Source of the DNA: a virus
DNA length: 35,861 nt
IMG/VR virus record: IMGVR_UViG_3300046009_003344
Location: 1 to 35,861 of that record
Direction: 5' to 3' (one strand)
Below the pieces are notes generated by a model. It ran no database searches, was not told where the DNA came from, and saw nothing but the letters and a program-made list of their open reading frames with translations. Shown here in pieces: positions 6,159 to 21,621 of the stretch (position 1 is its first letter; every line of letters begins with the position of its first letter). The position numbers and the translations under genes were made by a program.

Positions 6159-6411
6159 GATCAATCGCCTCTTTAGTATCTAACACCAACACAGTGCAAC
6201 CGTACGCCCGACGCTTTTCATGATCGCGTAATTGTAGCTCGGTTGGTTTTTTGTTCGGTGCTTTTAGTTCTACAAAAATAATTTGACCGTCTGGCATTGT
6301 TACAATGCGGTCGGGTACTGATCGCTTGGCTGGGCTGGTAAACTTTTCGCACATTCCGCCCAACTCTTTTATGCGCTTAACTAAATAGGCTTCGATTTGT
6401 TTCTCTAACAT
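6142..6411 (-). CDS. VRR-NUC domain nuclease
   Basis: This 89-residue stand-alone VRR-NUC domain of the PD-(D/E)XK superfamily contains KRSVPDRIVTMPDG (the PDR motif with the metal-binding Asp) and IIFVELKAPNKKPTELQ (the E-x-K pair), followed by a QLRDHEKRRAYG helix. Family members cut branched or flap DNA, and single-domain phage versions are Holliday-junction-type nucleases. The start is ATG at 6411 with GGGTGA upstream; a GTG at 6426 would add five residues. The gene lies between the GIY-YIG gene and the SNF2 gene and overlaps both, a common pairing of nuclease and translocase for processing replication intermediates. Confidence 0.9.
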   Translation of the reverse strand: MLEKQIEAYLVKRIKELGGMCEKFTSPAKRSVPDRIVTMPDGQIIFVELKAPNKKPTELQLRDHEKRRAYGCTVLVLDTKEAIDHAFPR

Positions 6412-7076
6412 GGTAGTTTCACCCACTTAAAGCCTTTATAAGTATTTTTATATCCGTTGCATACGTTATAAATTGATGACTTGGTAAAGGTTGGATTTTT
6501 AATAAGTATGTCTTCCATAGAAGCATAGGCTTTAACTAATTCACCGTCTTTTGTGTATTGCTCAAACGTATATTCACGGCGACTAACTTTAACTTTTTGA
6601 GCCATTGCTCGCTTTTTGTCTTCATCTTGCCATAAGCGGCTAGACGCTTGCGCTATTTTATTACGCCATTCTTGGTTATATTTTGCGCCGTTAGCGTGAT
6701 TAATTTTTTGCTTTTCAGATATAGCCTTTAGGCTTTGCTCACTTAAAACTCGATTATAAGCTGGATTATCTTTTCCTTTAACTGAGCGCATAACGTTATA
6801 GCCGATTACGTTTGTCTTAAACGTATCAATCCATTTTGTTTCTTGATCCCTTAAATCACTGTCGCTAATATCATCAAACACTTCCAAAACATAAAAAGCA
6901 AACTTATCTAAGCCATAAGCAATAACATCGGCTTTTAATTCAACATAATAGCCGTCATCAGCACACAGGGTTAACACAGACTTATGTTTGCTAATTCTAG
7001 CTTGATAATTTCGCGTTAAACCAATGTACTTTTTATTGTTTATCGTGTTCTCAATGCAGTAAATATAACCTTTCAT
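6405..7076 (-). CDS. GIY-YIG homing endonuclease with NUMOD-like C-terminus
   Basis: The N-terminal GIY-YIG nuclease domain is clear: GYIYCIENTINNKKYIGLT at residues 3-21, followed by a catalytic-type Arg (ARISKHK). The middle has a NUMOD3-like phrase (GKDNPAYNRVLSEQSLKAIS). The C-terminal part (KDGELVKAYASMEDILIKNP, then SIYNVCNGYKNTYKGFKWVK) is a NUMOD1-type DNA-binding helix-turn-helix. Together they describe a 223-residue free-standing homing endonuclease. It is more AT-rich and Lys/Asn-rich than its neighbours and sits between PolB and the VRR-NUC gene, consistent with recent insertion. It has its own promoter candidate at 7107-7135. Confidence 0.9.
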   Translation of the reverse strand: MKGYIYCIENTINNKKYIGLTRNYQARISKHKSVLTLCADDGYYVELKADVIAYGLDKFAFYVLEVFDDISDSDLRDQETKWIDTFKTNVIGYNVMRSVKGKDNPAYNRVLSEQSLKAISEKQKINHANGAKYNQEWRNKIAQASSRLWQDEDKKRAMAQKVKVSRREYTFEQYTKDGELVKAYASMEDILIKNPTFTKSSIYNVCNGYKNTYKGFKWVKLPC

Positions 7077-11112: not shown

Positions 11113-11131
11113 TGTAAAATTGCGCTTTACA
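11113..11131. promoter_or_regulatory. Operator (site 3, left half of divergent region)
   Basis: TGTAAA-N7-TTTACA, perfect 6-bp arms over 19 bp. Its right arm is the -35 box of the rightward promoter, and it adjoins the -10 box of the leftward promoter, so one bound dimer could block both. Confidence 0.7.
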
Positions 11132-11154
11132 TATTACCCAATCAGCGTTATTAT
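11126..11154 (+). promoter_or_regulatory. Rightward early promoter
   Basis: TTTACA at 11126-11131, 17 bases, TATTAT at 11149-11154. Transcription should start near 11161, giving a leader of about 27 bases before the GTG of the Cro-like gene. It drives the regulator and the primase-helicase. Confidence 0.8.
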
Positions 11155-11159
11155 GTAAA
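11131..11159 (-). promoter_or_regulatory. Leftward early promoter
   Basis: On the minus strand TTTACA (complement of 11154-11159), 17 bases, TAATAT (complement of 11131-11136). It overlaps the rightward promoter almost completely, face to face, so the two cannot fire at the same time. It drives the Ala/Pro-rich protein and DUF2800. Confidence 0.8.
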
Positions 11160-11172
11160 GCGTAATTTAACA
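11154..11172. promoter_or_regulatory. Operator (site 4, right half of divergent region)
   Basis: TGTAAA-N7-TTAACA: the same 19-bp design as the other sites with one mismatch in the right arm, so perhaps the weakest. It contains the -35 box of the leftward promoter and begins at the last base of the rightward -10 box. Confidence 0.62.
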
Positions 11173-13777: not shown

Positions 13778-13782
13778 CATAG

Positions 13783-13800
13783 CCCCGAAAGGGGTTTTTT
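13783..13800 (+). terminator. Intrinsic terminator after the primase-helicase
   Basis: CCCC, GAAA tetraloop, GGGG, then six T, starting five bases after the stop of the primase-helicase gene. It closes the rightward early unit. Confidence 0.85.
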
Positions 13801-13810
13801 AATGGTTTTT

Positions 13811-14025
13811 GAGGTAACAGGTAACAGTAAAAGGTAACAAGCTAAAAAACCTGTTACCTCCTGTAACTTATTGATTTTATACTTTATTTATTATAAAAGG
13901 TAACAGGTAACAGTAAATTATAAAAAAAGTAATATAGAATTATAAAAATAAAAAAGGGTGTATATTTAATATTATATGATAGAGGGGAGTAGGAAAAGGT
14001 CTGTTACCCATACCCTGTTACCTTT
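13811..14025. other. Probable replication origin: iterons and AT-rich DNA
   Basis: Eight copies of an 8-bp unit GGTAACAG (one ending in A) are present. Direct copies lie at 13813, 13820, 13833, 13899 and 13906; inverted copies (CTGTTACC) lie at 13851, 14001 and 14015. Two pairs overlap as GGTAACAGGTAACAG. Between the outer groups, about 13917-13980 is almost pure A/T, suited to strand opening. The location right after the primase-helicase is typical of phage origins. I see no gene from 13778 to 14190; the rest of that stretch holds the terminator, the late promoter and the leader RNA. Confidence 0.7.
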
Positions 14026-14066
14026 TGAAAATCGGGACAATCGCGTTGGCCATTTGTCGCTAGTTG

Positions 14067-14095
14067 TTTACAAGTACCATGTGTTTTGGTATAGT
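14067..14095 (+). promoter_or_regulatory. Late promoter
   Basis: TTTACA at 14067-14072, 17 bases, TATAGT at 14090-14095 with an extended -10 (TGG directly before it). No TGTAAA-N7-TTTACA operator is present. The start of transcription is expected near 14102, exactly at the 5' base of the three-way-junction RNA. It precedes the whole rightward late operon. Confidence 0.7.
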
Positions 14096-14101
14096 TGGAA
14101 T

Positions 14102-14146
14102 TGTGGCAGGTAGGCATACCGCTGGCATCGACACCCAGCAGCCACA
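14102..14146 (+). promoter_or_regulatory. 5'-terminal three-way-junction leader RNA
   Basis: Outer stem TGTGGC (14102-14107) pairs with GCCACA (14141-14146). Inside, separated by single A linkers, are hairpin GGTA-GGCA-TACC (14109-14120) and hairpin GCTGG-N9-CCAGC (14121-14139). Every stem base pair is Watson-Crick. It begins at the predicted first nucleotide of late mRNA, 45 bases before the first late gene. Possible roles are 5' end protection, a put-like antiterminator or a ligand sensor; none is proven. Confidence 0.6.
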
Positions 14147-14190
14147 TTTAATTTTAATCAGTGTCGCTTCTAGTCGAGGAGATCAGAATT

Positions 14191-14445
14191 ATGCAAAGCC
14201 TACAAACGCAACACGCAAAAGCCTTAACTGAATTGGGCATATACAACACACAACATCAAGCAAACCTTATCATTCAAAGCATCCTAGACTTAGCCAAAGA
14301 ACTGAGTATCAACTATCCGCAATACGGCTTTGAAAATCACTCAGATGGTTTTTACGCGCTATTGGAATGCAAATCAAATCTTGAAACGGTTTGCTCAATG
14401 GTTGATAATCCAAACTACAAACTTGCTATTGGTGACTTGCAATGA
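14191..14445 (+). CDS. Hypothetical first late gene
   Basis: I do not recognise this 84-residue protein. The sequence is mainly helical and Gln/Leu-rich (MQSLQTQHAKALTELGIYNT, then LIIQSILDLAKELSINY), without cysteine clusters or membrane segments. ATG at 14191 is chosen because GAGGAG sits nine bases upstream; an upstream in-frame GTG at 14161 has no such site. It is the first gene downstream of the late promoter and leader RNA and overlaps the next gene by 4 bases, so both small genes are probably co-translated. A host-directed or regulatory role is possible but unsupported. Confidence 0.7.
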   Translation: MQSLQTQHAKALTELGIYNTQHQANLIIQSILDLAKELSINYPQYGFENHSDGFYALLECKSNLETVCSMVDNPNYKLAIGDLQ

Positions 14446-14615: not shown

Positions 14616-15223
14616 TGCAAGTAGAACAAATCGCAACGGTTGATTTAATTCCGTACGCACGCAACAGCCGTACGCATAGCGATGAACAAGTTGCACAAGT
14701 CGCAGCGTCAATACGCGAGTTTGGTTTTACTAACCCAGTATTGATTGATCAGGATAACGGTATTATTGCAGGACATGGGCGCGTAATGGCTGCAACACGC
14801 TTAAAACTCGACACAGTGCCTTGTATTCGACTTTCACACCTAAGCGATACACAGAAGCGGGCATACATCATTGCAGACAACAAACTAGCCCTTAACAGCG
14901 GATGGGATGATGAAATGTTGAAGCTGGAACTAATGGACTTAAATGAGCTAGGTTTTGATGTTGCTTTGACGGGTTTTGATGCTGAGTTTCTCGAAGACGA
15001 AGCGATTGATGATTTTGAACCAGAATTAAACAGCAATGATCGTGACCCTATTCGAAATATGACTTTTACCGTATCAGATGAACAGCATGAGATTATTGAG
15101 GAATGCCTAAAAATAGCTAAAGAATTTGAACCCAATGATCCTATGGGAATAAATGAAAATAGCAATGGTAACGCGCTTTGGTACATTTGTGAAACATTCA
15201 AGACCACTAAAGGCATTGCATAA
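14612..15223 (+). CDS. ParB N-terminal (ParB/Srx) domain protein
   Basis: This 203-residue protein has a ParB/sulfiredoxin-like domain in its first ~110 residues: IPYARNSRTHSDEQVAQVAA, then SIREFGFTNPVLI and the nucleotide-binding-type loop GIIAGHGRVMAATRL, then ADNKLALNSGWDDEM. In many phages and islands this domain is fused to an adenine DNA methyltransferase; here no methyltransferase follows. The acidic C-terminal third (FLEDEAIDDFEPEL) is variable. It overlaps the Mom-like gene by one base, so the two proteins probably act on the same DNA substrate. Alternative ATG at 14615. Confidence 0.87.
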   Translation: MMQVEQIATVDLIPYARNSRTHSDEQVAQVAASIREFGFTNPVLIDQDNGIIAGHGRVMAATRLKLDTVPCIRLSHLSDTQKRAYIIADNKLALNSGWDDEMLKLELMDLNELGFDVALTGFDAEFLEDEAIDDFEPELNSNDRDPIRNMTFTVSDEQHEIIEECLKIAKEFEPNDPMGINENSNGNALWYICETFKTTKGIA

Positions 15224-15942
15224 TGAGCGCACTTGAAATAGAAGTGAAACCAATCCCAAAATCAAAAGCTGATGAAATTGTAAAGAAGCATCATTATAGC
15301 GGCAAAGTGGTGCAAAATAGCCAGCTATGCTTCGGGGTTTGGTATAAGGGCGTTTTAATGGGTGCAATGCAATTCGGACCACCAACTGACAAACGAAAGA
15401 TATTACCACTGGTAAAGGATAGCGGATGGAACGAAATGTTGGAATTGAACCGCATGGCATTCAGTGACCATTTACCAAGGTTTAGCGAAAGCCGAGCAAT
15501 TAGTCTTGCGTTTAAGTGGATGAAAAAAAACGCACCTCACATAAAATGGGTGGTTAGTTTTGCAGACGGAACGCAATGCGGACACGGGACTATTTATCAG
15601 GCTAGTAATTTTAAGTTGTCACAGATTAAAGAAAATAGTCGACTAATTGAATTACCTAATGGCGAAAAAATACATTTATTAAGCATGGACGTATCTAAAG
15701 GGGGAAGCAAATACTCCTCCGATATGAAAAAGAACGGAATGACTTCTGTAAAAGAATACCTTGATAAATTCCACAACGGATGGAAGCCGTTAACAGGTTA
15801 TATGTACCGTTATATCTATTTCATAACGAAGGACGCAGAAAAACGATACACGGGCGAGTTCGTACCGTTTGCAAAGATAAAAGAACTCGGTATTCAAATG
15901 TATAAAGGCGAATGGGTGAATAATGGCATTCAGCAATCGTGA
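15223..15942 (+). CDS. Mom-like DNA adenine modification protein
   Basis: At 239 residues, this protein is close in length to phage Mu Mom, an acetyltransferase-fold enzyme that converts adenine in DNA to a methylcarbamoyl-type adduct and shields it from restriction. Family-like elements are KADEIVKKHHYSGKVVQN near residue 15, FGVWYKGVLMGAMQFGPP near 38, ELNRMAFSDHLPRFSESRAI near 75, VVSFADGTQCGHGTIYQASN near 108, and GYMYRYIYFITKD near the end. No Com-like zinc protein is nearby. It lies between a ParB-domain gene and the terminase genes, fitting modification just before packaging. The family call rests on remembered motifs. Confidence 0.75.
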   Translation: MSALEIEVKPIPKSKADEIVKKHHYSGKVVQNSQLCFGVWYKGVLMGAMQFGPPTDKRKILPLVKDSGWNEMLELNRMAFSDHLPRFSESRAISLAFKWMKKNAPHIKWVVSFADGTQCGHGTIYQASNFKLSQIKENSRLIELPNGEKIHLLSMDVSKGGSKYSSDMKKNGMTSVKEYLDKFHNGWKPLTGYMYRYIYFITKDAEKRYTGEFVPFAKIKELGIQMYKGEWVNNGIQQS

Positions 15943-16420: not shown

Positions 16421-17603
16421 GATTGAAACGCCTAGATGGTCAGTTCCGCTTTTGCGTCCTAATCGCATAAAAGGCGCTAAGGGCGGACGATCATCTGGCA
16501 AGTCGCATACGTTCGCCGAGATGCTTGTTGAGGAGCATATTCACGACAAAGATCTGCAAAGCGTTTGTATTCGTGAAATTCAAAAGTCACTTAAATTTTC
16601 AGCTAAAAAACTAATCGAGAGCAAAATACGCGAGTTTGGTGTTTCGCACTTGTTTGAAATCACGCTAACCGAGATTAGGCGAGTTGATGGCCAAGGGTTG
16701 ATTATTTTCCAAGGTATGCAAGACCACACCGCCGATTCAATTAAATCGCTCGAAGGGTTCGATAGGGCGTGGGTAGAAGAAGCTCAAAGCATATCGAAAC
16801 GAAGCCTAGAGCTGTTAGAGCCAACGATACGAAAAGACGGAAGCGAGATATGGTTCACATGGAATCCAGATCAGCCGACCGATCCAGTTGAGCAGTTATT
16901 TAACGACACACCAGACGCGATACTCGTCCACGTCAACTATACCGACAATCCTAAATGCCCTAGCGAAATGATTAAGCTGGCAGAAAAGACAAAGCGCAAC
17001 GATCCAGACAAGTACGCGCATATTTGGCTAGGTCAATTCAACACCAAGTCGGAAAAGCAAATCCTTAACGGTAAATGGCGTGTTGCTGACTTTGAGCCAC
17101 AACATGATTGGGACGGTGCTTATTTCGGCATGGACCACGGATTTGCTACCGACCCAATGACGTTGGTTAAGTGTTGGATTGCAGGTCGAACGCTTTACAT
17201 TGAGAAAGAGCGCTTTGGTCACGGTATCGAAATCGCCGATATGGTCGAGTTTGTTGAAGTTATGCCAGAGGCGGTTAATCACACCATTCGAGCAGATAGC
17301 GCAAGACCTGAGATTAATAGCCATTTGCGAAACGCTGGCCTTAATGTCGTGTCTGTTGAGAAGTGGGCAGGAAGCGTTGAGGACGGCATTACGTTCCTAA
17401 GGTCATTCGATGAGATAGTCATTCACTCATCATGCACGCACATCATCGAAGAAGCGCGTTTATGGTCCTACAAGACAGACCGCTTGACGGGTGATATAAT
17501 GCCGCAAGTAGTTGATGATTATAACCACGGCTGGGACGCTGTTAGATACGCCTTGCAGCCATTAATTAAGCAAGAGCCTGCATTTATTATGGAGTTTGCA
17601 TGA
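16407..17603 (+). CDS. terL: Terminase large subunit (PBSX-type)
   Basis: This 398-residue packaging motor has Walker A GGRSSGKS at about residues 26-33, Walker B RAWVEEAQS near 125, and a motor coupling motif with WFTWNPDQPTDPVEQ. The C-terminal RNase H-like nuclease holds acidic residues in YFGMDHGFATDPM, TIRADSARPE and DYNHGWDAVRYAL. Length and motifs match the Terminase_3 (PBSX) family, which often packages by a headful mechanism; that would agree with a circularly permuted map. I chose the ATG at 16407; a TTG two codons upstream is less likely. It overlaps the portal gene by four bases. Confidence 0.94.
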   Translation: MWTLKIETPRWSVPLLRPNRIKGAKGGRSSGKSHTFAEMLVEEHIHDKDLQSVCIREIQKSLKFSAKKLIESKIREFGVSHLFEITLTEIRRVDGQGLIIFQGMQDHTADSIKSLEGFDRAWVEEAQSISKRSLELLEPTIRKDGSEIWFTWNPDQPTDPVEQLFNDTPDAILVHVNYTDNPKCPSEMIKLAEKTKRNDPDKYAHIWLGQFNTKSEKQILNGKWRVADFEPQHDWDGAYFGMDHGFATDPMTLVKCWIAGRTLYIEKERFGHGIEIADMVEFVEVMPEAVNHTIRADSARPEINSHLRNAGLNVVSVEKWAGSVEDGITFLRSFDEIVIHSSCTHIIEEARLWSYKTDRLTGDIMPQVVDDYNHGWDAVRYALQPLIKQEPAFIMEFA

Positions 17604-21593: not shown

Positions 21594-21600
21594 CCAATTA

Positions 21601-21621
21601 GGGGCAGAAATGCCCCTTTTT
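21601..21621 (+). terminator. Intrinsic terminator after the capsid gene
   Basis: GGGGCA, GAAA tetraloop, TGCCCC, then five T, starting eight bases after the capsid stop. Tail genes downstream have no promoter that I can see, so the terminator must be partial or be overridden. Confidence 0.82.

Follow-up and report, generated by a model that had tools for sequence, protein, structure and literature searches.

The leader of phage T7 gene 10 begins with a 5′-terminal stem-loop that stabilises the mRNA. For RNase E, base-paired 5′ P ends are cut far more slowly than accessible ones, and the RppH of Bacillus requires at least two unpaired bases (available excerpts of PMC3997798). The put RNAs of phage HK022 are about 70 nt long and form two stem-loops (excerpts of PMC9378689), while homing endonuclease genes of the T4 type have RNA structures that hide the ribosome-binding site, and seven free-standing T4 endonuclease genes are promoter-less cassettes that rely on local phage promoters (both from excerpts of PMC2988022). 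Like putL and putR, the RNA analysed here is a phage leader adjoining its promoter, its action in cis being hypothetical; like the T4-type genes I-TevI, segB and mobE, most of its relatives combine an RNA structure and a dedicated promoter at a homing endonuclease gene.

The window (the whole stretch of viral DNA analysed, 35.9 kb of a virus record) contains leftward early genes and, rightward and in this order, a Cro-like regulator, a primase, an iteron region and a late operon with ParB-like, Mom-like, terminase, portal, capsid, tail and lysis genes (Table 1). The iteron region, in which GGTAACAG repeats in both orientations flank an A+T-rich stretch with TTATTGATTTTA, is probably an origin of replication, of the class in which iterons follow the primase gene. 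Judged by eye among the late leaders listed, this layout is kept in many relatives and the iterons differ, being TTACAAG in the related locus L017 and GCGCCCC in the related locus L031. Late leaders behind the origin in Pseudoalteromonas phages PHS21 and AL and in a further contig (L078) have CATATAACAAAACGGTATTTAAC in common, possibly another conserved late leader element. Searches of PHROG (with the ORF 14161-14445) and of Pfam gave no match for the first late gene. Elsewhere in the window, divergent early promoters at 11123-11165, beside the Cro-like gene, have a common palindrome (CGCTTTACATA...TATGTAAAGCG) that is kept in L017 and is likely an operator; the Mom-like DNA modification gene of the late operon (15223-15942) neighbours the ParB-like nuclease gene; and a GIY-YIG homing endonuclease gene (6405-7076) lies immediately behind the DNA polymerase gene, with no three-way-junction leader of the late-operon kind upstream of it.

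Table 1. Features of the promoter and leader region, in positions of the window
Feature	Position	Strand	Description
Iteron-rich, A+T-rich region	13780..14030	.	GGTAACAG repeats; between primase and promoter; leader excluded
Sigma70-type promoter	14067..14095	+	TTTACA -17- TATAGT, TGG extended -10
-35 box	14067-14072		TTTACA, followed by 17-nt spacer
Extended -10	14087-14089		TGG
-10 box	14090-14095		TATAGT
Three-way-junction leader RNA	14102..14146	+	45 nt; outer stem, hairpin 1 (14109-14120), hairpin 2 (14121-14139)
Predicted transcription start	14103..14103	+	G; from promoter spacing and pair conservation
Outer stem	14102-14107/14141-14146		6 bp
Hairpin 1 stem	14109-14112/14117-14120		GGTA/TACC
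Hairpin 2 stem	14121-14125/14135-14139		GCTGG/CCAGC
Linkers	14108 and 14140		single A each
Shine-Dalgarno sequence	14177..14181	+	AGGAG; read from sequence; 30 nt past leader structure
First late-operon gene	14191..14445	+	84 aa; start corrected relative to ORF list

The preliminary description had placed an extended -10 promoter directly before a perfect 45-nt three-way junction. Sequence reading and a promoter scan bore out the former, and folding and a junction scan confirmed the latter with its stems and A linkers. The promoter by itself is unremarkable, as the scan found 21 promoter-like sites in 12 kb against 22.2 expected. The 45-mer had a minimum free energy of -18 kcal/mol (z -2.15), with equally good folds in 5 of 200 shuffles. 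When the window was scanned for perfect Watson-Crick junctions (outer stem of 6, hairpins of at least 4, linkers of at most 2), 14102-14146 was the only one of its class, and 20 first-order Markov sequences of window length contained a mean of 0.35. Rfam gave nothing at or above the gathering score at the leaders of the window and five other loci (L031, L116, L117, L119 and L120). The Shine-Dalgarno sequence lies outside the leader structure, which thus does not sequester the ribosome site.

Two relatives carry the leader before a late operon. L017 (contig 3300042470_000489) encodes an exonuclease 100% identical and a primase 93% identical to those of the window; by eye, from the consensus, the primase differences lie mostly towards the C-terminus. 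Its intergenic region has diverged all the way to where the first late gene begins to be translated, yet the promoter core is retained, with the -35, the -10 and TGTGTTTTGGTATAGTTGG identical to the window despite the divergent flanks. Conservation of the pairings in relatives, by which the preliminary description had proposed to judge the element, is present here: all 15 pairs are kept and three of the 15 are changed on both sides (U-A to G-C in hairpin 1, C-G to U-A and G-C to C-G in hairpin 2), against 27-53% pairing in slid controls. L031, drawn from the best 80 of 260 loci of an exonuclease search, has an exonuclease 90% identical to that of the window and a different primase, whose best match (30%) is the primase of phage LP.1. 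After its own iterons it contains TTTACA-17-TAATAT, five bases, and TTGTGGC ... GCCACA, preserving the promoter, the window's place after the origin and the gap between -10 box and outer stem. Its fold is like that of the window, with an outer stem of 6 bp, a 4-bp hairpin with a 4-base loop and a 5-bp hairpin with a 9-base loop. Other searches reached less far. The patterns TGTGGC..GGNAGGCATNCC..GCCACA and GGTATAGTTGGNNTTGTGGC found only a window-like contig and L017 in viral_contigs; a primase alignment that included a 25% relative (A2) found three viral loci and none in the genomes; a two-sequence covariance model (R1) missed L031 with default filters and gave a weak match unfiltered (E 0.12); and blastn of the leaders against phages produced no convincing match.

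Scanning viral_contigs for a -10 box, five bases, TTGTGGC, AGG and GCCACA returned 15 stretches, three of them already known (the L031 contig, the window-like contig and L017). Four were new junctions before a gene (L116, L119, L120 and, on the opposite strand of the match, L117), and the genes behind all four encode endonucleases of the homing type, HNH in L116 (PHROG), L117 and L120 (both Pfam) and GIY-YIG with NUMOD3 in L119. The others (L114, L115, L118 and L121-L125) were set aside as chance matches that fold otherwise, several inside long open frames; L114 and L125 are mutual copies, as are L122-L124. A match from another scan (L110), inside a 710-aa frame, was likewise attributed to chance. 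In L120, a diversity-generating retroelement RNA (2779-2899; Rfam Phage_DGR, E 1.5e-15) lies beside a reverse transcriptase-like ORF. Among eight annotated phages with HNH relatives of L116, the leader was found in one, Vibrio phage 41E34.2 (L127), with the outer stem altered to TGCGCC/GGCGCA; for the other seven, complete records gave no match to R2, a covariance model built from six seeds with their promoter columns included. The HNH endonuclease gene of phage 41E34.2 (601-1131 of L127; PHROG 953) is unannotated.

Run against 99 of 133 loci plus the window (1.1 Mb), R2 returned four of its own seeds and, at E-values of 5e-10 to 0.002, copies in L093, L063, Vibrio phage LP.1 (L027) and Pseudoalteromonas phage AL (L026). 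All four precede endonuclease genes, three of them HNH_3 (Pfam) and that of LP.1 endonuclease VII-like (PHROG). Among 13 further phage records, Alteromonas phage PB15 had one match, before an HNH_3 gene, and the remaining 12, including HK022, PHS21 and T5, had none; the weak three-way junction at 17092-17139 of PHS21, A+T-rich and with a poor outer stem, was set aside. The L119 record contains a second copy, before a Rha gene. Pattern and covariance searches thus added 11 copies to those of the window, L017 and L031. Ten of the 14 members stand before endonuclease genes, one before Rha and three before late operons (window, L017 and L031). The copies of phages 41E34.2 and PB15 were found through their endonuclease genes and are not evidence for that link, to which the other eight and the Rha copy do speak. 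The converse fails, as most endonuclease genes examined have no leader (seven of the eight L116 relatives and 12 of the 13 records, of which HK022 and PHS21 were not picked for an endonuclease gene). Endonuclease-linked copies occur in Vibrio, Pseudoalteromonas and Alteromonas phages as well as in uncultured ones; 369 gammaproteobacterial genomes, none of them a positive control, gave no R2 match.

Covariation supported the fold across these members. In an alignment of six (A10), pairing is intact in 96.2% of pair cells, both partners have changed in five pairs and 11 cells, and the covariation score is 0.508 against 0.199 in shuffled alignments (reached in 0 of 500) and at most 0.11 in slid versions. 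With 13 members aligned to R2 and L017 left out (A11), pairing is seen in 94.5% of pair cells and a change on both sides in 27, counts biased towards the structure since the alignment had been built to match it; covariation is 0.536 against 0.200, again in 0 of 500 shuffles. Simply counting the pairs in which both sides have changed gives six, a number that 100 of 500 shuffles also reach. G-U occupies two pair positions in 5 and 7 of the 13 members, and such common G-U pairs indicate pairing in RNA rather than DNA. RNAalifold, unaided, found the outer stem and hairpin 2 and left hairpin 1 open; outside the window and L017 the prediction of hairpin 1 is uncertain, and L127 is able to form an alternative one.

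A covarying outer stem of 5-6 bp and a hairpin 2 of 4-5 bp are what all members have in common, the window and L017 included. Between these helices, the endonuclease-linked members and also L031 conserve an unpaired core, UAGG-n-CYGAA. The window has AGG twice and CCG but lacks GAA, as does L017, and in this form hairpin 1 is a clean 4-bp stem. Against R2 the window scores weakly (17.3 bits, E 0.55 in 1.1 Mb; E 0.044, in a different register, in 89 kb unfiltered), and L017 has no same-strand match at the leader. Position, promoter spacing and the shared TTGTGGC...AGG...GCCACA are the sequence features that would tie both to the family. Because GAA of the core is missing, although L031 has the full core at the homologous place, we class the window copy, by its sequence, as a diverged relative and not a full family member.

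The distance from the promoter is also kept. From the end of the TANNNT box to the first G of the outer stem there are 6-7 nt in all 14 members (7 nt in the window), a figure that is partly selection since the box is inside the scan patterns and the R2 seeds, L127 having been found without it. The box matches TATAAT at four or more of six places in 13 of the 14, compared with 13% at random positions. With this fixed distance the RNA would be expected to start flush with the helix. Three of 13 members do not form the outermost U-A pair; the next five pairs are intact in all 13. The preliminary description had placed the start at about 14102; a start flush with the helix is still predicted, but on box spacing and pair conservation G14103 is likelier than T14102. 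The simplest reading would be that the RNA begins with this G, the first of the outer stem, and is paired from base one.

We see about an even chance that 14067-14146 is a portable promoter with a structured 5′ leader RNA, most probably serving end protection, that one phage lineage uses for its late operon. Comparison of the sequences shows a fold that compensatory change has preserved, that has a constant spacing to the -10 box and that recurs across diverse phages, mostly ahead of genes of the homing endonuclease type, and we read it as a cassette typical of homing endonuclease genes. An mRNA initiated with the first outer-stem G would have a base-paired 5′ end, which may hinder 5′-end-dependent decay, namely pyrophosphate removal by RppH and 5′ sensing by RNase E, and may insulate the message. 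As RNase E is slow on base-paired 5′ P ends and the RppH of Bacillus requires unpaired bases, a closed end is a plausible stabiliser; such protection would suit a cassette that needs expression wherever it is inserted, and equally a 21-kb late message. The lineage would have employed the cassette for its late operon, with the full consensus in L031 and a diverged form in the window and L017. The suggestion that the leader is a 5′ protective element is upheld as far as a covarying structure flush with the predicted 5′ end goes; protection itself is the likeliest of the proposed functions. One observation counts against it: the conserved UAGG-n-CYGAA core would be superfluous in a stem that only protects. 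In the endonuclease-linked copies this core asks for more, such as contact with a protein, a ligand or the polymerase. A more ambitious reading, which we regard as less likely than not, would make the leaders a phage RNA family that has had no name so far: a mobile promoter-leader cassette would have travelled with homing endonuclease genes, its conserved core would act on RNA polymerase or on some host factor, and a single phage lineage would have recruited it to drive an entire late operon.

The conserved single-stranded core and the invariant stem positions would also be consistent with a binding site, at which a ligand or a protein of phage or host controls the downstream gene, for instance in endonuclease autoregulation; T4 endonuclease genes are tightly controlled, partly through RNA structure (excerpts of PMC2988022). 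We consider this unlikely on balance, because the downstream genes are unrelated (HNH, GIY-YIG, endonuclease VII-like, Rha and the late operon), which makes the product itself improbable as a general ligand, and because GAA is missing from the core in the window.

Antitermination of the put type had been suggested in the preliminary description; the nascent leader would bind RNA polymerase and carry it past terminators such as the predicted capsid terminator at 21600-21617. The leader follows its promoter directly, as in putL (excerpts of PMC9378689), the unpaired core of the members could contact polymerase, and the late operon is long. However, the leader is one closed 45-nt domain and not a pair of stem-loops, R2 found nothing convincing in HK022 (best 10.3 bits, E 4.3; no match in a second search), and most members precede single short genes, ten of 14 of them for endonucleases, where read-through of 21 kb is unnecessary; nor is the core intact in the window. 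The terminator itself is a consensus match from a scan that gave 12 sites against 12.1 expected. So far this interpretation is unsupported, and we judge it rather doubtful.

Pairing could instead reflect an element that works in the DNA, whether as an inverted repeat or cruciform recognised by a protein or as a piece of the neighbouring origin, since the iteron region adjoins the leader and TGTGGC/GCCACA is an inverted repeat in DNA as well. This is improbable, as the spacing between the outer-stem halves varies among members, the G-U pairs of the helices would be mismatches in DNA, and some copies, such as those of phages AL and LP.1, precede endonuclease genes that do not adjoin the origin. 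A functionless chance structure, to which the z of only -2.15 for the 45-mer alone might point, is barely credible given the covariation in 13 members and the fixed distance from the -10 box.

Returning to the portable, end-protecting leader, on sequence grounds it looks like a ready-made start cassette exchanged among phages. If endonuclease genes carry both promoter and RNA leader, this would explain how some of them are expressed in any orientation, and use before a late operon would mean that the control region of a selfish gene has been absorbed into the phage programme. Being small and defined by covariation, the RNA is readily testable with a reporter. The accessible parts of the open-access literature on homing endonucleases and on phage RNA structure and promoters contained no description of it. 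Compared by description only, it differs from the T4 cases in that its structure occupies the 5′ terminus and does not cover the ribosome site. Another comparison is with the 5′-terminal mRNA-stabilising stem-loops of ompA and papA: in both, a helix is flush with the 5′ end (a prediction for the leader), portable, and upstream of and apart from the ribosome site, and the leader differs from that type in being a three-way junction with covarying helices and, in most members, a conserved unpaired core.
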